A DNA stretch of 64,000 nucleotides, from positions 930,001 through 994,000 of the forward strand of contig NZ_CP113939.1 of assembly GCF_029392315.1 (NCBI RefSeq). Reading direction: 5' to 3'. Under the pieces are notes generated by a model that was not told the DNA's origin, did no database searches, and was given only the letters and a program-made list of their open reading frames with translations. The DNA is from Bifidobacterium sp. ESL0690 (GTDB lineage Bacteria > Actinomycetota > Actinomycetes > Actinomycetales > Bifidobacteriaceae). Both the position numbers and the translations under genes were made by a program. Below are positions 20,676-31,777 of this stretch, in pieces (positions within the stretch are counted from its first letter, which is position 1; every line of letters starts with the position of its first letter).

Positions 20676-21704
20676 ATGGATGGTGCTGAAATGCAAGATG
20701 GAACCAAGGATTTTGTGACCGTTGCCGGAATCGATTGCGGCACCAATTCCATACGTCTCAAGGTTTCCAAGGTGTTTGCCGACGGCAGCGTCGAGGACGT
20801 CGTGCCCCGCGTCTTGCAGGTCATCAGGCTCGGTCAGGACGTTGACAAGACCCATCGTTTCGCCGAAGACGCGCTTGAACGCGCCTACTCGGCCGCTCGC
20901 GACTTCGCAAAAGTCTTGAAGGAACATCCGGCTGATGGGTTGCGTTTCGTGGCCACTTCGGCGACGCGCGATGCCGAGAACCGCAAGGAATTCGAAGACG
21001 GTATCGAATCGATCTTGGGGGTACGGCCCGAAGTCATTCCCGGAACGGAAGAAGCCGCGCTGAGCTTCCTTGGGGCCACGGGCAGCGTGCCGCGCAAGGG
21101 CCTCGAGGCGCCGTATCTGGTGGTCGACCTCGGCGGAGGTTCCACCGAAATGGTGATGGGCGGCGACGGCAAGTCCGCGCCGGCCACCAGCGTGCAAGCC
21201 GCATTCTCGATGAACATCGGTTCGGTTCGTATGACGGAACGTCATTTGCGCACCGACCCGCCGACGCAAGCCGAGATTGCCGAGGCGAGCGAGGACATCG
21301 ACCGGTATATCGATGAGGCGTTCGAACATATACCCGCAGGCAAAACGCGCACCATTATCGGCGTTTCCGGGACGGTGACCACGATGACCGCGCTGGTGTT
21401 GGGTTTGAAGGCATACGACCACCGTGCCGTCGACGGCGTACGGGTTTCATACAAGGATATTTTTGATGTCGACGACCGTTTCCTCAACATGACCCGAGCC
21501 GAACGCGCCACCTACAAGACCATCCATCCCGGCCGCATCGACGTGGTCGGCGGGGGAGCGCTGGTCTGGAATCGCGTGCTGGCCAGGGTTTCCGAGGCCG
21601 CGCAATGCGACCACGGCACGCCGATTGATTCTTTTATTTCCAGCGACCACGGCCTTCTCGACGGCATCGTCCTCGATTATGGAACAAGGATGCTGAATAG
21701 CTGA
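20676..21704 (+). CDS. Ppx/GppA family phosphatase (exopolyphosphatase-like)
   Basis: Hydrolyses terminal phosphates of polyphosphate and/or pppGpp. The 342-residue protein is the short, two-domain actin-fold form without the C-terminal HD part. The two phosphate-binding loops are GIDCGTNSIRL near residue 18 and VVDLGGGSTEMV near residue 150; the ATSATRDAENRKEF and PGTEEAALSFLGA stretches are typical of the family. Two upstream ATGs are close together (20676 and 20691); neither has a strong ribosome binding site. It is the last gene of the eno-ftsB-DUF501-ppx group. Whether it prefers polyphosphate or alarmone cannot be told from sequence. Confidence 0.9.
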   Translation: MDGAEMQDGTKDFVTVAGIDCGTNSIRLKVSKVFADGSVEDVVPRVLQVIRLGQDVDKTHRFAEDALERAYSAARDFAKVLKEHPADGLRFVATSATRDAENRKEFEDGIESILGVRPEVIPGTEEAALSFLGATGSVPRKGLEAPYLVVDLGGGSTEMVMGGDGKSAPATSVQAAFSMNIGSVRMTERHLRTDPPTQAEIAEASEDIDRYIDEAFEHIPAGKTRTIIGVSGTVTTMTALVLGLKAYDHRAVDGVRVSYKDIFDVDDRFLNMTRAERATYKTIHPGRIDVVGGGALVWNRVLARVSEAAQCDHGTPIDSFISSDHGLLDGIVLDYGTRMLNS

Positions 21705-21871: not shown

Positions 21872-21952
21872 GCCCCCGTGGCGGAATTGGTAGACGCAAC
21901 CGACTTAAAATCGGTCGCCATTGGCTTGTGGGTTCGAGTCCCACCGGGGGTA
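21872..21952 (+). tRNA. tRNA-Leu (TAA anticodon)
   Basis: An 81-base cloverleaf with a long variable arm as expected for a class II leucine tRNA. The acceptor strand GCCCCCG pairs with CGGGGGT (first pair G-T); the anticodon stem ACCGA/TCGGT encloses CTTAAAA, giving anticodon TAA; the T arm has GGTTCGAGTCC. The CCA end is not encoded. It reads UUA codons, which are rare in this genome. Confidence 0.95.
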
Positions 21953-22274
21953 CTTTTCCGTATTGGCTTGTATAGGCACGCTGTCGTGCTTATCTCGGTC
22001 ATTTCGGCAGAAGCGGAAGCCTCTCATTAAGCCCGTGTAATTAAAGCCATTTGTTTTATCGAGAAATAGTTATTAGTATTATTTCATAATGATGTGTGAT
22101 AACGTATTTGTCTTCTATCGTTCAAAGGAATTCTAAGGATACATCGCCGGGTTTTCCCCTTTGCGTCGATACCGAGCCGCCGCCGCTTCTATGAGACAAC
22201 GGAAGCAGCGTCACTTCGTGGAAATTGAAGGGTTGATGATTTTAGGCAGAATTCGTAGGGAGTATTTGTAGGTA
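21953..22274 (+). promoter_or_regulatory. AT-rich intergenic region before the polyketide-like locus
   Basis: This 322-base gap has no open reading frame or strong dyad. The middle (about 22040-22130) is markedly AT-rich. TTGTTT (22051-22056) and TAGTAT (22074-22079), 17 bases apart, are a weak promoter candidate. No repeat of the tRNA end is seen here. Confidence 0.3.
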
Positions 22275-25200
22275 ATGGTCGATATTGATGCAAAAGATGT
22301 GTTTTCGCTGGGTGCCTTGGTCAAGGACACAAGTGCTGGCGGCGACGATGTCGCGGTATGTTTCCCTGGGCACGGCAGCCAATCGCTTGATATGTTCGAC
22401 GGTTTCATCGCCCGTTCGCCGGCCGCAAAGCGTCTGATCGGGCGGGCCGACGAGGTCTATGCGGCGCGTTACGGTCAACCGCTGACAAAGGTGATCGGTG
22501 ACGGCACGAAAGCGACGCTGATGATGCCGCAGGTCATGCAGCCGGCCATCGTCACGGCTTCCGTGGCCATGTTCGAGGCCATCCGTGAACACTCGATTCC
22601 GGTCGGATTGCTGATGGGACATAGTCTCGGCGAATACAGCGCTTTGATCGCTTCGGGCGCGGTGTCGTTCGAAGACGGGCTTTCCGCGGTTCTGGACCGT
22701 GCCGAATGCATCGCCTCGATTCCCGAAGGCATGCGCGGGGCGATGGCGGCAACCAAGATTGATTCTCCGGAAACCGAGGCTCTGGTGCGCGCCGTCGTCG
22801 CGGAACTGGCCTACCGTGGACCGATTGTCGTGGGCATTGTCAATTCGAATTCGCAGATGGTCGTTTCAGGCAGCACTACGTTGGTTGACCAGGCGATCAG
22901 TGATTTGAAGGCATGCGGGGTACAGGCCACGAAATTGGCGATTCCTGTCGGCTTCCACAGTGAGGTACTCTCGCCTGTGTTGCCGGATCTGCACGCCCGC
23001 TTGAAGCGCTATGAATGGAAGACGCCCACGATTCCTGTGGTTTCCACGATTACCCGGTCGGTGCTGGGCGAGCATGAGGTCAAGGCATTGCCGGAGCTCT
23101 TGGCCGGCCAGTTGGTTACGTCCTTTGATTTCCGGGACTGCGTGGCGGCTTGCGAACGTCGCGGAATCAGGATTTTCATTGACGCCGGTCCAAAAGGCAT
23201 CGTCGGCAGACTGATTGGCGAGTCTCTTCAAAGCGGCCGTGGCGGCGTGGTCCGCCTGGATTATGGCGCGGCAAAGGCTGAGAAGACCGAGGACCGTCTT
23301 GACGGGCTGCGCTGGCTTTGCGGCGGGAATATCGCCGGTTCGGTTACAGACAATCATGCTGGTGATGTTGCTGGTGCTGATGCCGGTGCAGCAGAAGAAG
23401 GCGCCGGTGCTAATCGCGTTGCTGATGCTGCTATCGATACCGGTGAAGGTGCCGTTGCCGATGACACCGGACGGCAAGAGACCGTTGCCAATGACGCAGA
23501 ATACAAGGAAACCGCAAGGGATAACGCGTCGAAGAATCCTGCTATCACCGATGCTTCGTTGGGGTCTCTTTTGGTGGATGTCTTCTGTGAGGTGACGGGT
23601 TATCCCAGTGATGTCCTTGACCCTGATATGGATTTGGAAGGCGATCTGGGTATCGATTCGGTCAAGCAGATGGAGGCGTTGGGCAAGGTCGCCGACAGGC
23701 TCGGCCTCGACCCGCAGGATGTGGACCTTTCCGAGGTGCATACCCTTCGCCAGCTTGAAGCCGAGCTGCGCAAAATCACCATATCTCCTTCAAACGATGA
23801 TGCTGACAGCAGCCATGCCGATATGACAAATCAGGAAGCGAATACTGCCAGTGAGGGCGGCAACCAAGAAAAGACGGGTTCGGCACCGATATCCGATGCC
23901 GCACGTCTCTCTGATTCCATACCATCTGATTCTTCTTTCGCTTCGGCAGAATCCGAAAAACCTGCGAAAGAAAATCTGTCGGATGAAAATCTTGCGGATG
24001 GAAAGCCAGGGAGCGGAAAGATTACGGATGGTGATCTCGGGGCCTTGTTGGTGGATGTTTTCTGTGAGGTGACGGGTTATCCCAGTGATGTTCTTGATCC
24101 TGATATGGATTTGGAGGGCGATCTGGGCATTGATTCGGTCAAGCAGATGGAGGCGTTGGGCAAGGTCGCCGACAGGCTCGGCCTCGACCCGCAGGATGTG
24201 GACCTCTCCGAAGTGCATACGTTACGCCAGCTCGAAGCCGAGCTGCGCAGCATGACGAACCAATCTGTGGCAGATGGGCAAGGCAAGGATGCCGCGAACC
24301 AGGGTGTGGATGAGGCGAGCGTGACCGGTGCCACGAATACGACGAACGCGACGAACGCAGCGAACGCTGAGGATGGGAACGAGTCAACCGACGCAATCGA
24401 CAGGACAAACGCGACAAACCCGGCGAACGATAATGCAAGAAGCGCCAACGAAGACTTCGGTCGCTTCGTGCCCCAGCTGGTCGTCAGCCATGTCGATGAC
24501 AACGAGGAAACCGACGATTTCAGCGATGCCGGTTGCCTGGTGGTCTCAAGTGGCGACGCACGGCTCGATCTGAAGGTCAGCAACGCGTTACGGCCGTTCG
24601 TCGCTCAGGTCAAAACCATCGTGCTGAATGCCGAAGGGCCACAAGAAGCGGTGAACATCCCCCATTTCGACAGGCCGTTGCGCGTCGTCGTCGATTGCCA
24701 CGCCTTGCTTGACCGTTTCAATGGCGCCGATATCGCGCAGAATGAATGGATGCGTCATGTCGAGCGTGCCTACGCTTCCGTCTTCTCCTTGAGCAAGGCC
24801 TTGCTCGCAGACGTCGAGGGAACAAAGCAGCCGTTCGCTTGGGTTTCACTGACCAATTCCGGCGGGATATCGGGCATCGGTTCCGAAGGGACCAAGGGGA
24901 CCGGCAACCCGCTCGGGGCGCTCAACACTGGTTTCTATAAGAGCCTGTGCCGTGAATACGAGAACCTGACCATCAAGACCATCGATCTGGACGAGTGCGA
25001 CCGTGCCCCCGAAATCGTGGCAGACGAACTGCGTCATTTCAGTGCTCGCAACGATACCGAAATCGGTTATGTGGACGGTCAGCGCCAGGTCGTGCGCGTC
25101 ATTCCGCTCGAAATCAAACAGGAACATTCGGTTCGTCAGAAGCTCAAGGCCGGCACGGTGGCCCTGTTTTCCGGAGGCTCGCGTGGAATCGCCCTCGAGT

Positions 25201-27014
25201 GCGCGAAGGCGTTGGCCGACGAGCAGCCCGATATCGAGGTTGTGGTCACCGGTCGTTCGGATATTCACGACCCGTCGGCGCAGCCATGGCTCAGGATGGA
25301 AGACGAGGCATTCAAGGCCGCGAAACCCGATTTCATGCGCCGGCTGCATGTGCGCTCACCGCAATTGAGCGCGGCGTCGATCGCCGACGAATACGAGCGC
25401 ATCGGTCATATCCGTATGCTTGCCCGGAATATGAACGATTTCATCTCTTCGAAAAAGAACCTTCATTATTATCCGTGCGACGTTTCGAACGCCCAATCGG
25501 TGCAGTCTCTGGTCGATCGCGTTCAAAGTGAGCTGGGGCCGATTTCGCTGGTCGTGCACGCGGCGGGTTTGGAATCGTTCGGCAGGCTTTCGTCCAAGAG
25601 CCTCGAGAAGACGCTTGAATGTCTTAAAGTCAAGGTGGCCGGTTTCCGCAACCTTTATATGGCCACGTTGAATGATGAAAGCCTGAGTGCTTTCGTGTCG
25701 TTCGGCTCGGTTTCCGGGCGTTTTGGCATGGACGGACAGGTCGATTACACCGCCGGCGCCGCTCTGCTCGCCGCCTTGTCGTATTACCTTTCGATGGATG
25801 CCTCGGGCAGGCGCCCCGACGTCTCGTTCACGACACTGGAATGGTCGGCCTGGGCCGGCGTCGGTATGGCCGCGGACCCCAAGGTGATGGCCGTGCAAAG
25901 CAAGGGCCGTGGCATGGACTATCTTCCCGTGGAAACGGGTAGGCGGTTCTTCCTCGATGAGCTTGCCGTAGGTCTGGCCGATCCGGAGGTGCTTGTTCTG
26001 GGAGGTCTCGGCTCCAACAAGCCGTTGGGCCAGCTGGATGCCTTGGATGAACATCGCAGGCTTATCTCGGTGGTGGATGCCGATGGTTATGTCATCGACA
26101 AGCCGCATTTTCCGCTCATTGACCGGTTCGAACGCAAGGATCAGGACAATGCCACGGCCTATAGGGATCTTCGATACGACCGCGATCTTTACCTGCCCGA
26201 CCATCGTGTCAAGTCCATGACCACCTTCCCGGGCCTGCTGCATATGGAGACCCAGGTGGAGGCCGCGGCGTATCTGGTCGACCCGCACCGATATGGGGTC
26301 GAACTCGACAGCGTAAGTTTCGACCGGTTCCTGAAATGTAGGGACAACGACGAAGTGCCGGTTTCCGTTTCCATCCACCGTCAGGGCCCGCAGATCGAGA
26401 CGAAGCTTTACTCCACGTTCAAGGCTCCCAACGGCAGGGTTCTTATCCCGAAACGCTTCCATTCCGGCGCCAAAATGCATATCGTGGGCGACCCGTTCGC
26501 TCCCTACCGCGCGGATTGGTCTTACGAGGAGCTGATGAAGGAGGGCGTCGCCTTCGATCTTGACCGTTATTATGCCAGCACGGCGCATTTCATCAGCTTC
26601 GGGCCCACTTTCCGCTACGTACGGCAGGCCAGGCTGGTCAACGACAATTGCATGGTCGGCCAATTCGTGGTCTCGGCCATACCAGGGCTCTTCAGCGACG
26701 TGCGTAACCCCCGGTTCCTGTGCTGCCCGCTGCTGATCGACAATGTCGGCCGGATGGCCTTGATGCGCGAGTTCCAGTTGTTCGGACGCCATATCGTCCC
26801 CACGATGATCCGCGGAGGCCGCCAATACCGTTGCCCTGCGGCCCGCGAGGTCTGCTACGGCAAGGTGACGGTTTTGGGCGAGGACGAAAACACCGTGGAT
26901 ACCAATATGGAGATCGTCGACCAGGAAGGTTTCGTGCTCTGCAAGGCCGACCGCGTCACGCTTACCAAGCTCGGGCCCTCTGAAGACGAGCACGATATAT
27001 TGCAACGGTCATGA
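22275..27014 (+). CDS. Multidomain polyketide/PUFA-synthase-like protein: AT-ACP-ACP-KR-DH
   Basis: A 1579-residue iterative-type synthase subunit. Residues about 27-330 are an acyltransferase: GHGSQ, GHSLGEYSA with nucleophile Ser117, and GFHS with His228, a pattern pointing to malonyl-CoA. Two acyl carrier domains follow, with phosphopantetheine serines in GIDSVKQ at Ser462 and Ser621; they are almost identical and separated by low-complexity Ala/Asn/Thr linkers. Residues about 700-1270 are a ketoreductase: structural half, SGGSRGIALECAK at 966-978, then Ser1145 and Tyr1158 of the catalytic set. The end is a double-hotdog dehydratase with His1310 (LPDHRV, then PGLLHME) and Asp1489 (LLIDNVGRMAL). 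The KR style and ACP repeats resemble PfaA of PUFA synthases. The condensing activity is missing here and supplied by the next gene, which begins where this one ends. No enoylreductase or thioesterase is seen. Product is unknown. Confidence 0.88.
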   Translation: MVDIDAKDVFSLGALVKDTSAGGDDVAVCFPGHGSQSLDMFDGFIARSPAAKRLIGRADEVYAARYGQPLTKVIGDGTKATLMMPQVMQPAIVTASVAMFEAIREHSIPVGLLMGHSLGEYSALIASGAVSFEDGLSAVLDRAECIASIPEGMRGAMAATKIDSPETEALVRAVVAELAYRGPIVVGIVNSNSQMVVSGSTTLVDQAISDLKACGVQATKLAIPVGFHSEVLSPVLPDLHARLKRYEWKTPTIPVVSTITRSVLGEHEVKALPELLAGQLVTSFDFRDCVAACERRGIRIFIDAGPKGIVGRLIGESLQSGRGGVVRLDYGAAKAEKTEDRLDGLRWLCGGNIAGSVTDNHAGDVAGADAGAAEEGAGANRVADAAIDTGEGAVADDTGRQETVANDAEYKETARDNASKNPAITDASLGSLLVDVFCEVTGYPSDVLDPDMDLEGDLGIDSVKQMEALGKVADRLGLDPQDVDLSEVHTLRQLEAELRKITISPSNDDADSSHADMTNQEANTASEGGNQEKTGSAPISDAARLSDSIPSDSSFASAESEKPAKENLSDENLADGKPGSGKITDGDLGALLVDVFCEVTGYPSDVLDPDMDLEGDLGIDSVKQMEALGKVADRLGLDPQDVDLSEVHTLRQLEAELRSMTNQSVADGQGKDAANQGVDEASVTGATNTTNATNAANAEDGNESTDAIDRTNATNPANDNARSANEDFGRFVPQLVVSHVDDNEETDDFSDAGCLVVSSGDARLDLKVSNALRPFVAQVKTIVLNAEGPQEAVNIPHFDRPLRVVVDCHALLDRFNGADIAQNEWMRHVERAYASVFSLSKALLADVEGTKQPFAWVSLTNSGGISGIGSEGTKGTGNPLGALNTGFYKSLCREYENLTIKTIDLDECDRAPEIVADELRHFSARNDTEIGYVDGQRQVVRVIPLEIKQEHSVRQKLKAGTVALFSGGSRGIALECAKALADEQPDIEVVVTGRSDIHDPSAQPWLRMEDEAFKAAKPDFMRRLHVRSPQLSAASIADEYERIGHIRMLARNMNDFISSKKNLHYYPCDVSNAQSVQSLVDRVQSELGPISLVVHAAGLESFGRLSSKSLEKTLECLKVKVAGFRNLYMATLNDESLSAFVSFGSVSGRFGMDGQVDYTAGAALLAALSYYLSMDASGRRPDVSFTTLEWSAWAGVGMAADPKVMAVQSKGRGMDYLPVETGRRFFLDELAVGLADPEVLVLGGLGSNKPLGQLDALDEHRRLISVVDADGYVIDKPHFPLIDRFERKDQDNATAYRDLRYDRDLYLPDHRVKSMTTFPGLLHMETQVEAAAYLVDPHRYGVELDSVSFDRFLKCRDNDEVPVSVSIHRQGPQIETKLYSTFKAPNGRVLIPKRFHSGAKMHIVGDPFAPYRADWSYEELMKEGVAFDLDRYYASTAHFISFGPTFRYVRQARLVNDNCMVGQFVVSAIPGLFSDVRNPRFLCCPLLIDNVGRMALMREFQLFGRHIVPTMIRGGRQYRCPAAREVCYGKVTVLGEDENTVDTNMEIVDQEGFVLCKADRVTLTKLGPSEDEHDILQRS
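23571..24249 (+). repeat. Tandem near-identical ACP-coding repeats (202 bp each)
   Basis: Bases 23571-23772 and 24048-24249 encode the two carrier domains. The translated units are the same except at the last residues, and only a few silent differences separate the DNA. The offset is exactly 477 bases (159 codons), while the linkers on either side are unrelated, which points to recent duplication or ongoing gene conversion. Confidence 0.9.
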
Positions 27015-27037
27015 AAGACGTAATGAGGAAGTCGAAT

Positions 27038-29560
27038 ATGTCGAACAATAGTTTTGAACCGATAGCCATCGTCGGCACGGGATGCGTCCTGCCGCCCTCG
27101 TCGTTTTCGCCCGAAGAGTTCTGGCAGGCCGTCACTCACGGGGTCTCCGGCATCGCGCACGCACCCAAAAACAGGTGGAACAATGCCCTCGAATATTTGG
27201 ATGCAGACCGCAGCGCCGAAGACAAGACCTACTGCGGGGTCGGTGGTTTCGTCGTCGGCTATCACGGCCCTCAAGGCCATTCGCCCGACGGCAAGCCGTG
27301 GTCGTCGTACCGGTTGAACAGGACCCAGCAATTCATTGTGGACACGGCCGAACAGGCGTTTGCACAGGCGGGAATCGACGTCCCAGACAGGCGTCGGTGC
27401 AGGCTCTTGCTGGGCAATATGCTTGGTGACGAGGCGTTTGACGACGACGAACTTGTCGATATCATCCATGAGCTCCTGAGTGAGGACGGCGATGAGTTGC
27501 CGGTCGACCTGCGCGGGGAGGCCGAAAAGGCCATCGACCATTATGTGATGGAAGACAAGGTGCGCGGCGAAGCGAACACGTCCACCGATCTTGCCCGCGT
27601 GCCCTCGAAACTCATGGGCATGGACGATCACCCGGTGCTGGTCGACGGCGCTTGCGCCTCCGGCCTGCTGATGGTTGACCTTGCGTCGCGTTATCTTCAT
27701 CGTTATCCGAATCGGATGATCATGGCCGTCGGCGCGATGTCGAATATGTCGGTGACCGGCAACGTCACTTTCGCCAAGGTCGGAGGCCTTTCGGACCGTG
27801 CGCCCAAGCCCCTGGACGCGCACGCCAACGGGCTGGTGCCCGCCGAAGGTTCTTCGACCGTGCTGTTATGCACGCCGGACTATGCGCGCGCCAAAGGCTA
27901 CAAAATCCTGGCGCTGGTCACCGGTGCGTTCTCCACCAGTGACGGGCGGGGCAAAGCCATCTATGCGCCCAAGCCGGCAGGGCAGTTGCGTGCCATGTCG
28001 TCCGCACTGGCCACAGCCGGTGAAAATGTGGAACGCATCGACTACATCGAGACCCACGCCACCGGCACGCCCGCAGGCGATGCCTCGGAGCTTTCGGCGA
28101 TCGCGGACCTGGTCGGCCATCGGCGCCGAGGACCGATGCCGGTGGGTTCGGTCAAGAACCTGATTGGCCATGGTTTCCCTGTGGCCGGCATGTCGAATCT
28201 TCTGGTGGTGCTCGAGGCTATGAAACATGCCACTTTCCCTGCGGTGACGGGAGTGGAGACGCCCAATGAGGTCATCGTCGAACATCCCGAATCCCTGATG
28301 ATTCATACCAGGCCCGCACGCTGGGAGCGGCCGGGCGACGGCCCGCGCAGGGCGTTGATCAATGCCTTTGGCTTCGGCGGGATCAACTCGTCGATCGTCT
28401 TGGAGCAATACGACGGTTCCGACGCCACCGATATCGCCGAAGTCCGGCGGCCCGAAGGCCGTGACGCCTCCTATCTGGTCGTCCAATCGGTCTCGCACAG
28501 CGCATGCAAGCGGCCCGACGGATTGCTGGAAGACCCGATGAAGGACGTGGATTGGCGCGTCTTTCGTATGCCTCCCGTATTGGTCTCGCATATGGACGTG
28601 ACCCAGCGCCTTGCCATCCTCGCCGCCAAAGACATTATGGAAGACGTGCGAAAGGAGCCGAAGGACACTGTCGGGGCACTGTTCGGGCAGCCGTCGGGTC
28701 TGGCCGTAGGGGGCCGCAGGGAGCTGCGCATACGCCTTGTTGAAGTCAACGCCGCCATTGACCGTTCGTCGATGGCCGCCGACGACAAGGAGCGTGTGAA
28801 GCAGTGGATCGACCATCAGGTCAAGGCGCGCATCGAAAAGACCAGCGAGGCCTCTCTGCCCGGTTATATGGACAATATCATCTCCGGTCGCGTGGCCAAC
28901 ATGTTCGATCTGACCGGGCCGAATTACATCGTCGACGCGGGCACGGACTCCTTCGGCACCACGTTGGAATTGGCGCAATTGCAGCTTTCCAGCCACGAAG
29001 CGGATGCGATGATCGTCGGCTCGTCGTTCGCCAATCCAAGCAGGGTCGTCAACCAGGATGCCGCCGAGCTCGGAGCATGCGACATCGCTTTGGTGCGGAC
29101 GCTCGATTGGGGGAGGGCACACCCCGATTTGGTCAAGGCGGTTATTCGCATCGACCAATCGCAGGAACCCGCAAAAGACCTGGATGTTTTGAAAGCGGCG
29201 ACGCTGGTGGACATCGTGCACAATCAACGCTGGCCCGCCCGGCGGTTCCGTGCTGCAGGAGCCAGCATCGACCTGTTAAGCACGAAGAATCTTGATACGG
29301 TCGATGCCGAGCCTGCGCCCCAAGAGACCGGCCCTGAGCCGGCATTCTGCGAGCCTCAAGTGAACAGTGGGATGTCATGGCTGGGAATAGGCGGCAGCGA
29401 CATCGCCGATTGCATCTCGCGTCTTCAGGATGTTCCGGTGGCTTCGGGGCAGGCAACGCCGGAAAACGTGAGGGTCATGATTCCCTTCGATTCCGAAGTC
29501 CAGAAAAACGAAAAGGAAGCCGCGCTCCTTCAGCTGTTGGAACGGAACGCCGTCGTTTGA
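27038..29560 (+). CDS. Ketosynthase plus chain-length-factor-like protein (PfaC-type KS-CLF)
   Basis: The condensing partner of the preceding synthase, 840 residues. The first half (about 1-455) is a complete beta-ketoacyl synthase: IAIVGTGCVLPP at the start, active Cys206 in DGACASGL, His340 in HATGTPAGD and Lys373/His378 in KNLIGHGFPVAG, then NAFGFGGINSS. The second half (about 510-750) has a ketosynthase-like fold, but at the nucleophile position reads VDAGTDSFGTT with Thr636 in place of Cys, as in chain-length factors. The last 80 residues are not recognised. The ATG at 27038 has GAGGAAG well placed; an earlier ATG at 27011 overlaps the upstream stop by 4 bases and would imply translational coupling. 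The KS-CLF layout is that of PUFA-synthase PfaC without its dehydratases. Confidence 0.87.
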   Translation: MSNNSFEPIAIVGTGCVLPPSSFSPEEFWQAVTHGVSGIAHAPKNRWNNALEYLDADRSAEDKTYCGVGGFVVGYHGPQGHSPDGKPWSSYRLNRTQQFIVDTAEQAFAQAGIDVPDRRRCRLLLGNMLGDEAFDDDELVDIIHELLSEDGDELPVDLRGEAEKAIDHYVMEDKVRGEANTSTDLARVPSKLMGMDDHPVLVDGACASGLLMVDLASRYLHRYPNRMIMAVGAMSNMSVTGNVTFAKVGGLSDRAPKPLDAHANGLVPAEGSSTVLLCTPDYARAKGYKILALVTGAFSTSDGRGKAIYAPKPAGQLRAMSSALATAGENVERIDYIETHATGTPAGDASELSAIADLVGHRRRGPMPVGSVKNLIGHGFPVAGMSNLLVVLEAMKHATFPAVTGVETPNEVIVEHPESLMIHTRPARWERPGDGPRRALINAFGFGGINSSIVLEQYDGSDATDIAEVRRPEGRDASYLVVQSVSHSACKRPDGLLEDPMKDVDWRVFRMPPVLVSHMDVTQRLAILAAKDIMEDVRKEPKDTVGALFGQPSGLAVGGRRELRIRLVEVNAAIDRSSMAADDKERVKQWIDHQVKARIEKTSEASLPGYMDNIISGRVANMFDLTGPNYIVDAGTDSFGTTLELAQLQLSSHEADAMIVGSSFANPSRVVNQDAAELGACDIALVRTLDWGRAHPDLVKAVIRIDQSQEPAKDLDVLKAATLVDIVHNQRWPARRFRAAGASIDLLSTKNLDTVDAEPAPQETGPEPAFCEPQVNSGMSWLGIGGSDIADCISRLQDVPVASGQATPENVRVMIPFDSEVQKNEKEAALLQLLERNAVV

Positions 29561-29615
29561 CTGAACGGACGGAATCGGCGGAATTGACAAAATCGGCGCG
29601 ATTGGCAGGCGCAGG

Positions 29616-30254
29616 TTATGCCGGAACCATTGTCATTGCAGCGATAAGATGCCCGAAGTGGGTCCATTGTCCGCTGCAATGAAAGCGGTCGGTGCTGGCA
29701 TTGAAAATCCCGTCTGGCTTGAGCCGGATGGTCACGCGTCTGCAATCGCCTATGTACTTGGAAGCGTTATAGGCTTTGAAAACCGCCTCCTTGGCACAGA
29801 AGCAGGCTTTCGTCTCCACGGCGGTGAGCTGGCGGTCCGATTCCTGTTCCGCCAGCGAGAACACGGCTTCGAAAGCCGCCTGCGGCAAGGGACTGTCCTC
29901 TTCCACGTCCACTCCGAGGGTGGTATGTTTATAGTCAAAATCCACTGCCGCCACCGAAAGCGTCGGGCAATGGGAAAGCGAACCCACAATGCCTTCAGGC
30001 CAGATGGGCGCTCCGTCGTGTCCGCGCAAAACCGGGCCGTCACGATGAAGCCGTTGCAATGCCAGATGCGCGCATTCCCGTCCCGTCAGGAATTCCGTAC
30101 GTCGTTTGGGTGTGGCATGGCGGAGCGATGTGCGCTCCTCGTCCCTGATATGATCCAGTCCGTCGATTTCCTCGGAGGTCACGATTGTGCAGCCTTGTTT
30201 GAGCAGAGGGGCGAACAGACCATTGACGTCTTGTTCTGAAATATTTTTATTCAT
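29616..30254 (-). CDS. 4'-phosphopantetheinyl transferase, EntD/Sfp type
   Basis: Transfers phosphopantetheine from CoA to carrier-protein serines, here most likely to the two ACPs of the adjacent synthase. About 212 residues. Motifs in order: TPKRRTEFLTGRECAHLAL, GAPIWPEGIVGSLSHC, the Mg-binding LGVDVEED, and FCAKEAVFKAYNA with the catalytic KExxxK. This is the secondary-metabolism class, not the short AcpS that serves the fatty acid synthase. It converges on the KS-CLF gene with a 55-base gap. Start is uncertain: ATG 30254 has AAGGA too close, and ATG 30272 or longer readings are possible, but the conserved core is unaffected. Confidence 0.9.
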   Translation of the reverse strand: MNKNISEQDVNGLFAPLLKQGCTIVTSEEIDGLDHIRDEERTSLRHATPKRRTEFLTGRECAHLALQRLHRDGPVLRGHDGAPIWPEGIVGSLSHCPTLSVAAVDFDYKHTTLGVDVEEDSPLPQAAFEAVFSLAEQESDRQLTAVETKACFCAKEAVFKAYNASKYIGDCRRVTIRLKPDGIFNASTDRFHCSGQWTHFGHLIAAMTMVPA

Positions 30255-30496
30255 TCCTTCATAATATGCCATACATCCACAAAAGTTGATTGATATTAAT
30301 AAAATGTAATAAATATCGACACATATAATCGTCGCCATGCCGACCTGCTCCACAATGCATAGGGCAATCGGTACCGGTTGACTTGGCTACGTACGTCAGG
30401 TAAAAGCTTTGTCTCATAAAGTGCCGGTTTTGTAACCTTGGCGACATTTCTGCGGGTAAAATAATCCGTGTTTTACTTACTTGAAAGGCGGTACAC

Positions 30497-31777
30497 ATGG
30501 CTGAGACTGTAGAGGGCAAACCGACAGCAGATACGGCAAAACGCGGCGGCGCGATGATCGTTGTCTCGCTGATGGCCGGCTATTCCGTGGTCTACATGGA
30601 CAAGAGCATGATTTCGTTGGCCATCATGCCCATCGGCAAGCAGTTCGGGCTTGACACCGGCCAGACCGGCCTGATCATGTCGTTCTTCTTCTTGGGCTAC
30701 GCCTTGATGCAGATTCCCTGCGGCTGGCTGGCTGACCGGATCGGCGCCAAAAAGGTGCTGGTGGGCTCGCTTGCCTTCATTGCCGTTTTCGCCTTCCTCT
30801 TCGGAGCCATGGGTGGTCTGATCCTCTTCATTGTCATGCGTTTCTGCATGGGTCTCGGCCATGGCGGCTATCCGCCGAGCGTCACCAAGTCGATCGCCGA
30901 GAACTTCCCGCTTAAAAAGCGCACGTTCGTCCAGTCGTTGATTCTTTCCACCTCCGGCATCGGCGGAATCCTCGCCTTCACCTTGGGCGGCGTGCTGGTC
31001 GATAAGAACTGGCGTCTCGCCTATGCCGTCCTCGGCGCGCTTTATCTGGTCTCCGTCATCCTCATCTGGTTCTTCGTGCCCTCGCACGGTGGCGCGGCCG
31101 AAGAGGAACGCAAGGCGCAGGCCGAAGCTCAGGCAGGCAATACGGAAGCCGCCAAAGCCGACGCCCCCAAGGCCAGTTTCAAGGACGTTATCAAGAACCG
31201 CAACGTCATCGTCCTGTTCATCGCGATGCTCTTCATCAATGTGATGCTCTACGGCCAGATGTCGTGGATGCCCACCTATATCAAGACCACTTTCGCGTTG
31301 AGCACGACAAAGGCCGCGTTGGTGCTGGCGTTCAACTCCATCTTCACCATGTTGGCCACCATCTTCTCCGGCTCGCTGCTCTCCAAGCTGTTCCTCGGCC
31401 GCGAGCGCATGGCCATTATCGGTTCCTGCCTGATCACCGCCGTGCTCATCGTGGTCTTCATCTTCGTGGGCAAGAGCAGTCTGGTGATATCGATGGTGCT
31501 GCTCGCCCTGATGAGCCTGGTCTCGATGTTTGCCTTCACCGGCATCTTCACCTGGCCGCACAAGATCATGAACGCCGAAATCATCGGTTCCTCCATTGCC
31601 GTCATCAATACCGGCGGTACGATCGGCGGCTTCCTGGCCCCGACCATCCTCGGCAATATGGTCAAGTCCGCGGGCGGCTCGTTCACCGGCGCCTTCCTGT
31701 TCATCGCCGCGATGACGGTGCTGTGCGCGCTGGTCGTGCTGTTCGTGAAGCCCGAGCTCACGACGGCCGGCAAGTAA
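30497..31777 (+). CDS. Major facilitator superfamily transporter
   Basis: A 12-helix secondary transporter of 426 residues. The MFS signature GWLADRIGAKKV lies in the first cytoplasmic loop (about residues 75-86), and a long charged central loop (about 197-230, EEERKAQAEAQAGNTEAAKA) divides the two halves. The sequence before the first helix is short and polar. AAAGGCGG precedes the ATG at good distance. The pattern recalls the anion/hexuronate symporter branch, but the substrate is not evident. It is divergent from the phosphopantetheinyl transferase across 240 bases and 73 bases upstream of the serine ammonia-lyase gene, so a role with either is conceivable but unproved. Confidence 0.88.
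   Translation: MAETVEGKPTADTAKRGGAMIVVSLMAGYSVVYMDKSMISLAIMPIGKQFGLDTGQTGLIMSFFFLGYALMQIPCGWLADRIGAKKVLVGSLAFIAVFAFLFGAMGGLILFIVMRFCMGLGHGGYPPSVTKSIAENFPLKKRTFVQSLILSTSGIGGILAFTLGGVLVDKNWRLAYAVLGALYLVSVILIWFFVPSHGGAAEEERKAQAEAQAGNTEAAKADAPKASFKDVIKNRNVIVLFIAMLFINVMLYGQMSWMPTYIKTTFALSTTKAALVLAFNSIFTMLATIFSGSLLSKLFLGRERMAIIGSCLITAVLIVVFIFVGKSSLVISMVLLALMSLVSMFAFTGIFTWPHKIMNAEIIGSSIAVINTGGTIGGFLAPTILGNMVKSAGGSFTGAFLFIAAMTVLCALVVLFVKPELTTAGK

Follow-up and report, generated by a model that had tools for sequence, protein, structure and literature searches.

Among the described systems closest to the locus considered here are the polyunsaturated fatty acid (PUFA) synthases, in which PfaA carries ketosynthase (KS), acyltransferase (AT), acyl carrier protein (ACP), ketoreductase (KR) and dehydratase (DH) domains in the order KS-AT-ACPs-KR-DH, PfaC is built as KS-CLF-DH/I-DH/I (CLF, chain-length factor; DH/I, dehydratase/isomerase) and PfaD is the enoylreductase (ER) (PMC13291983; this and all other papers are cited from excerpts of their text). 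The polyketide synthase (PKS)-like DH of PUFA synthases gives a 2-trans-enoyl-ACP that is then reduced by the ER, and the FabA-like DHs give 3-cis products (PMC9667614). Conjugated polyenes are made by CalE8, which has KS, AT, ACP, KR, DH and phosphopantetheinyl transferase (PPTase) domains and needs a thioesterase for release (PMC3107222), and a polyene is also the product of the proposed cyl pathway, in which reduction is assigned to CylG and CylZ only (PMC6985545). Shulse and Allen in 2011 distinguished 20 types (A–T) of Pfa-like secondary lipid synthase, some of them with a split pfaA (PMC3098273). The present analysis concerns three genes of Bifidobacterium sp. ESL0690, located in a 64,000-nucleotide stretch of contig NZ_CP113939.1 (positions 930,001 to 994,000; hereafter the window), which encode PKS1 (AT-ACP-ACP-KR-DH), PKS2 (KS-CLF) and a PPTase. 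The locus is read, with moderate confidence, as encoding a type I synthase that has two subunits, works iteratively, lacks an ER and descends from PUFA synthases; its product would be a conjugated polyene or polyenoic acid.

An earlier sequence-only reading had assigned these domains to the two synthase genes and their adjoining PPTase and had listed intact catalytic residues for the AT, both ACPs, the KR, the DH and the KS. Pfam bears out all of the domains and every listed residue is present (Table 1, which also reconciles the KS numbering of the two forms of PKS2). The PKS1 matches comprise the AT (residues 30–306), two PP-binding stretches, the KR (964–1194) and a PKS_DH_N/PS-DH region; in PKS1 and PKS2 together Pfam finds no release domain and no ER family, apart from short-chain-dehydrogenase models that fall on the KR. 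The best solved relatives of the AT are FabD-type malonyltransferases and, because the domain is FabD-like, it is probably malonyl-specific. A model of the DH (predicted local distance difference test, pLDDT, 72.1) returned only PKS dehydratases or PKS chains among the 50 Foldseek matches listed, the best being 8qk4 (TMq 0.67). The AT, KR and DH residues of Table 1 are the same in all seven aligned PKS1 proteins. The two ACPs of the window share 69 of 75 residues, and the corresponding DNA repeat is 89% identical over 236 nt (11% different). The number of ACPs varies between one and two among the bifidobacterial PKS1 proteins P0126, P0146 and P0188: ACP1 is missing from two of the seven aligned sequences (P0146, named B. 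breve, 1346 residues; P0188, 1330 residues), and P0126 (named B. catenulatum, 1454 residues) has two.

Table 1. Features of the synthase locus, in positions of the window
Feature	Position	Strand	Evidence
PKS1, AT-ACP-ACP-KR-DH, 1579 residues	22275..27014	+	Pfam, NCBIfam, alignment, dN/dS
AT, GHSLGEY S117, VGFHS H228, FabD-like	22350..23222	+	PF00698 108.9 bits; NCBIfam FabD 150.7 bits
ACP1, GIDSVK, S462	23565..23789	+	PF00550
ACP2, GIDSVK, S621	24042..24266	+	PF00550, DNA repeat, alignment
KR, S1145, Y1158, candidate K1120	25164..25856	+	PF08659 82.9 bits; TIGR02813 PfaA stretch 587–1241
PKS-type DH, double hotdog, H1310, D1489	26127..27011	+	PF21089 + PF14765, model, Foldseek
PKS2, KS-CLF, 849 residues (probable start 27038, giving 840 residues)	27011..29560	+	Pfam, model, Foldseek
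KS, C215/H349/H387 (C206/H340/H378 from the 27038 start)	27056..28408	+	PF00109 + PF02801
CLF, KS fold, cysteine replaced by T645, motif LPG[YF]MDN at 616–622	28466..29290	+	
Sfp/PptT-type 4'-PPTase, 212 residues from Met34 of the open reading frame	29616..30254	-	PF17837 + PF01648
tRNA-Leu(TAA), cassette edge, insertion-site landmark outside the pathway	21872..21953	+	

In PKS2, Pfam recognizes the N- and C-terminal ketoacyl synthase families followed by a second KS-fold stretch, and PF00109 scores 58.2 bits there when residues 464–849 are scanned alone. All 21 aligned family KSs retain the cysteine, the two histidines and a lysine without variation. The CLF position equivalent to the KS cysteine is variable across the family; the VIA-align rows cover almost only the KS part (residues 13–471) and carry no information about the CLF. 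The predicted structure of PKS2 (pLDDT 83.4, predicted template-modelling score 0.85) has 6riw, the KS-CLF of PfaC, as its first-ranked Foldseek match (TMq 0.69). Of 60 solved chains listed for the family profile, 6riw alone aligns in a single span across both KS and CLF; by total score it comes second to 7zma, a structure with two KSs that both align with the KS part. Among NCBIfam models, TIGR02813 (PfaA) ranks first for PKS1 (289 bits) and shares first rank for PKS2 (214 bits), the cut-off being 1010. Profile and predicted fold thus agree on a PUFA-synthase ancestry of the pair, and the description of it as PfaA- and PfaC-like parts with an altered split, the KS residing on the CLF protein, holds.

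The database form of PKS2 (P0004) is 840 residues long, so that the downstream start in Table 1 is probably the one used. The near-overlap ascribed to the two PKS genes therefore depends on the start: they overlap by 4 bp with the first ATG only, and are otherwise 23 bp apart. The PPTase, matched by the Pfam families 4PPT_N and ACPS, lies in an open reading frame spanning 29616–30353 on the reverse strand. It is a true neighbour of the synthase genes, as first read, but its labelling as EntD-type is not retained, since the NCBIfam models PptT and Npt score above EntD (all below their curated cut-offs). One other PF01648 match occurs in the genome, away from the locus.

The locus genes are under purifying selection. 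Relative to a sister species (G084, whose proteins carry the name Bifidobacterium sp. ESL0704 in the protein-search matches), the ratio of nonsynonymous to synonymous substitution rates (dN/dS, NG86) is 0.149 for PKS1 (1503 codons), 0.160 for KS-CLF (832 codons) and 0.221 for the PPTase (212 codons). These ratios, together with 302 protein matches for KS-CLF and 1720 for PKS1 at E 1e-3 (the best 120 of each listed, from about 8000 candidates scored in each search), argue that the locus does not owe its appearance to chance. The frames of PKS1 and KS-CLF are open in the window, in G084 (1503 and 837 codons) and in a third genome, G052; the lone TGA in the G084 KS-CLF match (G084:C1:1620041-1622581; L024 position 9042) is the gene's own stop. 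Absence from close relatives had been named beforehand as telling against the locus if unaccompanied by selection; the genes are indeed missing from three close relatives, yet the dN/dS values indicate purifying selection. Recent import was also considered from base composition, and the GC contents of PKS1 (58.2%) and PKS2 (61.2%) give no such signal against the window (58.2%), the PPTase being lower (53.5%). The locus is a real, intact and selected synthase, uncharacterised as far as the searches go.

The position of the KS was examined in a tree of 48 domains, two long-branch rows (the Thermoguttaceae KS-CLF and G736) having been left out of an initial 50. The 23 family KSs form one clade (98/99), apart from the PfaA-type, PfaC-type, enediyne PKS (PKSE)-like and type I fatty acid synthase (FAS-I) KSs. 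The partner gene is seen beside KS-CLF in four of these 23 rows (the window, G084, G646 and the contig-cut G670), the other 19 being represented by the KS-CLF protein only; it also lies beside KS-CLF in G052, which is not a row of the tree. In approximately unbiased (AU) tests, for which the groups were named after the tree had been seen, grouping of the family KS was rejected with PfaA (p 0.0025), with the PKSE-like rows (p 0.0067) and with rows containing a short-chain dehydrogenase/reductase (SDR-KS-CLF; p 6e-8), so that neither a PfaA-type nor an enediyne-type KS was retained as sister group. Grouping with PfaC was not rejected (p 0.127); the KS may accordingly be sister to that of PfaC. 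The PfaA label rests on TIGR02813 above cut-off for G167, G199 and G316, two further members of the group scoring below it; the PKSE-like label rests on KS-AT-PPTase content in three of five rows; and the domain scan covered two rows of the three in the PfaC group (all but G474) and a single one of the three in the SDR-KS-CLF group. The two FAS-I rows are separated from the rest by a branch of 3.75 with support of 100/100, and the genome's own FAS-I-size frame (3152 residues) matches KS-CLF at 26% identity over 241–466. A FAS-I paralogue is excluded on both grounds, in keeping with the first view of the locus as a synthase additional to FAS-I.

The nature of the product is suggested by the enzymes that accompany the synthase and by those that do not. 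Whole-genome searches gave no match to the PfaD enoylreductase at E 0.001 (TIGR02814; three of 14 control genomes match, one of them over the cut-off) and none to a FabA-type DH (PF07977; nine of 14 controls match), and no ER gene was recognized when genes around the synthase were scanned in the window, in G052 and in G646. The neighbouring PPTase would place pantetheine on both ACPs and the AT would load malonyl units. As the PfaC-like KS-CLF fold implies, PKS2 would act in trans, condensing on the ACPs that PKS1 carries, the CLF helping to limit chain length. Reduction by the KR and dehydration by the PKS-type DH would then leave a 2-trans double bond and, since neither a PfaD-type ER nor a FabA-type isomerase was found, the double bonds would remain conjugated as the cycle repeats, in the manner of CalE8 and the proposed cyl pathway.

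The genomic context of the same genes in two other lineages bears on the fate of the product. In G052 the order is an EmrB/DHA2-type efflux pump, PKS1, PKS2, a TetR-like gene and a PPTase on the reverse strand; in G646 it is PPTase, TetR-like gene (reverse), pump, PKS1, PKS2 and a second TetR-like gene (reverse). Both pumps score above the cut-off of TIGR00711; for TetR and the PPTase the matches fall below theirs. Because the synthase sits with a pump and TetR-like regulators in these lineages, what it makes is probably a small molecule that is exported under regulation, and not a bulk lipid of the membrane.

Several considerations weigh against an exported conjugated polyene. The cassettes of the window and of G084 consist of PKS1, PKS2 and the PPTase alone, with no adjoining pump or TetR gene, and export in these lineages is a guess; the G052 pump has seven matches elsewhere in the window's own genome (22–38% identity) and none in the locus. 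An ER may be borrowed in trans, the genome search having covered the PfaD family only. The polyene is a prediction from the genes. No release enzyme was found genome-wide with PF00975, the sole thioesterase family searched (ten of 14 controls match), and CalE8 requires a thioesterase. A short, partly reduced or pyrone-type product may also be compatible with the sequence.

With ER activity supplied from outside the locus, the product could instead be a saturated or partly unsaturated long-chain secondary lipid of the heterocyst-glycolipid (hglE-like) kind. The Pfa-like ancestry would suit such a lipid, as would the tandem ACPs, which are typical of secondary lipid synthases (PMC3098273), and antiSMASH calls hglE-KS in three B. 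longum strains, in genes that may or may not be the present ones (PMC11218132). The genome shows no PfaD match, however, no ER gene is recognizable among the scanned neighbours and the pump and TetR context suggests an exported product; a secondary lipid is therefore considered unlikely. Rather more doubtful is a short or partially reduced polyketide, such as a triketide or tetraketide of pyrone or polyenoyl pyrone type, that leaves the enzyme spontaneously. Self-release is conceivable given the lack of PF00975 in the genome and of a release domain in either subunit, but the residues of both KR and DH are intact. Moreover, the presence of a CLF and of tandem ACPs usually goes with a longer chain of defined length.

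A genuine PUFA synthase making methylene-interrupted cis fatty acids, in line with the PfaA/PfaC labelling, is very improbable. The TIGR02813 matches of both subunits and the PfaC-like fold of KS-CLF do point in that direction, but neither FabA-type DH/I nor PfaD is found genome-wide, the only DH is of PKS type by sequence and fold, the TIGR02813 scores are far below the cut-off and the grouping of the KS with PfaA is rejected; a PUFA synthase was accordingly rejected as the product class. That the locus is a decaying, non-functional remnant of an acquired cluster is scarcely credible, because patchy occurrence (three of 112 genomes) and a deletion scar in G015 are outweighed by open frames with all residues in place in the window, by dN/dS values of 0.15–0.22 and by two ACP copies that are alike in protein though not in DNA.

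The conjugated polyene synthase so proposed has relatives both near and far. Full-length KS-CLF orthologues occur in three of 112 representative Bifidobacterium genomes, namely the window's own (G000), G084 (83% identity) and G052 (51%), so that the gene set does recur in two further genomes of the genus. Some KS match at E 0.001 is found in 106 of the 112, nearly all weak and inside FAS-size frames. PKS1 is present in the same three genomes out of 189 of the family, that is, in one of 16 genera. In a sample drawn from the order, six of 396 genomes, the window's own counted, have matches at 1e-40; they include G646 (44% over 10–720), whose PKS1 has a beginning like that of P0220 from Actinomyces oris, and G670 (44% over 16–486). 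In a sample of the class the count, again with the window's own genome, is 30 of 394, and the rest show 28–40% identity. Named protein relatives of PKS1 belong to B. breve, B. catenulatum and A. oris. Those of KS-CLF further include the actinomycetes Saccharopolyspora erythraea, Streptomyces, Actinomadura and Corynebacterium glaucum, and also Paenibacillus, Desulfotomaculum, Clostridium, Butyrivibrio, Limosilactobacillus reuteri, Streptococcus salivarius and Leuconostoc gasicomitatum. The joining of KS with CLF is thus a property of a wide family across Actinomycetota and Bacillota and is not peculiar to one genome. A scan of genome contigs added a single distant Thermoguttaceae KS-CLF. Phage-borne spread was dismissed, as 14 IMG/VR loci gave KS matches only, at 23–31% identity (a scan of IMG/VR with a Streptococcus-named protein gave no match), and plasmid-borne copies likewise, as no single place in any of the 1256 matching records accounts for 80% of the query.

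In the window ppx (20676–21704) is followed by tRNA-Leu(TAA) and then by the cassette, and the cassette of G084 occupies the same site. In three close relatives compared over both flanks (G085, G088 and G091) ppx and tRNA-Leu are followed directly by a major facilitator superfamily (MFS) gene with no cassette; G088 and G091 have about 0.3 kb at the site, compared with 8.7 kb in the window. Of the five loci compared for the junction, G052, which ends at a contig edge, and G074, which has no MFS gene, are uninformative. The MFS gene (30497–31774 in the window) is most like 2A0114 and is not counted as part of the system because the relatives without the cassette also possess it; in G084 it is absent between the PPTase and a serine dehydratase gene. 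G085 has an extra 2.7 kb (L080 5648–8361) between ppx and the tRNA, with no match in the window stretch compared. A frame near the tRNA in this insert presumably resembles the C-terminal end of a tyrosine integrase, and the site is perhaps an integration hotspot. The tRNA lies on the ppx strand in the window and on the opposite strand in all five other loci (G084, G085, G088, G091 and G074); the tRNA and its upstream region constitute a small local inversion in the window.

G015 records a natural loss of the PKS pair by deletion. Its remnant retains the pump and TetR flank (L028 9283–10256). Measured on the G052 locus, some 6.4 kb is missing, with about 0.26 kb in its place; the gap opens at codon 41 of PKS1 and closes at codon 737 of the 841 in KS-CLF, which leaves the first 40 codons of the former and about the last 100 of the latter. 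The cassette would have been gained, or selectively kept, beside tRNA-Leu in a bee-gut-type lineage and lost in another Bifidobacterium. Two other genomes carry different synthases. G041, another Bifidobacterium (L026 8108–16668), has a hybrid of nonribosomal peptide synthetase and PKS, consisting of a condensation-AMP-binding-PP protein, a KS-PP-thioesterase protein, an acyltransferase and a thiolase-like gene. G040 has a FAS-I-like synthase distributed over two genes (L027 9458–19694; Fas1-like helical, MaoC and AT in one, FAS_I_H and KS in the other) and a further KS match in a 3426-residue frame.

Bifidobacteria are regarded as poor in secondary metabolism. It is tentatively proposed, as a possibility rather than an expectation, that the locus belongs to a clade, so far without a name, of polyene synthases with two polypeptides and no ER (AT-ACPn-KR-DH plus KS-CLF). 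These would descend from PUFA synthases that lost the KS of PfaA, the FabA-type DH/I and PfaD, and would have spread in host-associated Gram-positive bacteria, where exported polyenes shape communities. The hosts would be Bifidobacterium of the human and bee gut and oral Actinomyces; streptococci and lactic acid bacteria also carry the KS-CLF half. As a target for a gut metabolite, a complete three-gene synthase under selection is small and tractable, and proteins named B. breve and B. catenulatum are close relatives of it. Its list of parts is also a natural experiment on PUFA synthases, bearing on which domains are dispensable and on the output once the ER and isomerase are gone, and the cassette-free relatives together with the one genome bearing a deletion scar provide natural comparison strains.

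No characterisation of an AT-ACP-KR-DH plus KS-CLF family was recognized among open-licence papers, and the excerpts of PMC12806405, PMC11840169, PMC8549736 and PMC6469967 are silent on it. In a survey of bifidobacteria from patients with inflammatory bowel disease, antiSMASH gave seven PKS clusters, from B. breve and B. longum, as well as hglE-KS clusters in three B. longum strains that inhibited E. coli and S. enterica (PMC11218132); given the B. breve-named proteins P0007 and P0146, these hglE-KS and PKS clusters are probably of the same family. Among 477 bee-gut genomes T1PKS.hglE-KS has been called Apibacter-specific, and no Bifidobacterium cluster of that kind is named in the excerpted text (PMC10673953).

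The granadaene (cyl) system resembles the present one in its Gram-positive host and in combining malonyl transfer, ACP, KS, KR, DH, a PPTase and an exporter with no proposed ER step; it differs in using discrete cyl proteins together with CylE, CylF and a glycosyltransferase (PMC6985545). None of these last three was recognized among the scanned neighbours, where no search aimed at CylE was made. The enediyne PKSs (CalE8, DynE8 and SgcE) share the KS, AT, ACP, KR, DH and PPTase content and the lack of an ER, and their product is a conjugated polyene (PMC3107222); the window pair would work in the same way. A PKSE is a single polypeptide that includes the PPTase and relies on a thioesterase for release, whereas the window has three genes, a CLF and no PF00975, and its KS falls outside the PKSE-like group in both the tree and the AU test.

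The synthase types of Shulse and Allen are likewise Pfa-derived fatty acid synthase/PKS clusters with reshuffled domains, thought to have been scattered by horizontal transfer (PMC3098273). S. erythraea, a holder of type H, has a KS-CLF of the window's clade (P0014), which may or may not be its type H gene. No type spelled out in the excerpted text, which does not cover H, S and T, corresponds to AT-ACP2-KR-DH plus KS-CLF without an ER or FabA (PMC3098273). PfaABCD of marine Gammaproteobacteria and thraustochytrids differs in that PfaA carries both the AT and the KS, which in the window lie on PKS1 and PKS2, respectively; in having the FabA-type DH/I of PfaC and PfaD, for neither of which the genome shows a match; in its separate AT gene (PfaB), which the locus lacks; and in the clade of its KS. 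The likeness extends over the AT, the tandem GIDS-type ACPs, the KR and the PKS-type DH, which follow one another in the order of PfaA, and over a KS-CLF didomain of the PfaC fold (6riw), so that the window pair looks in effect like PfaA minus its KS together with PfaC minus its DH/I domains.

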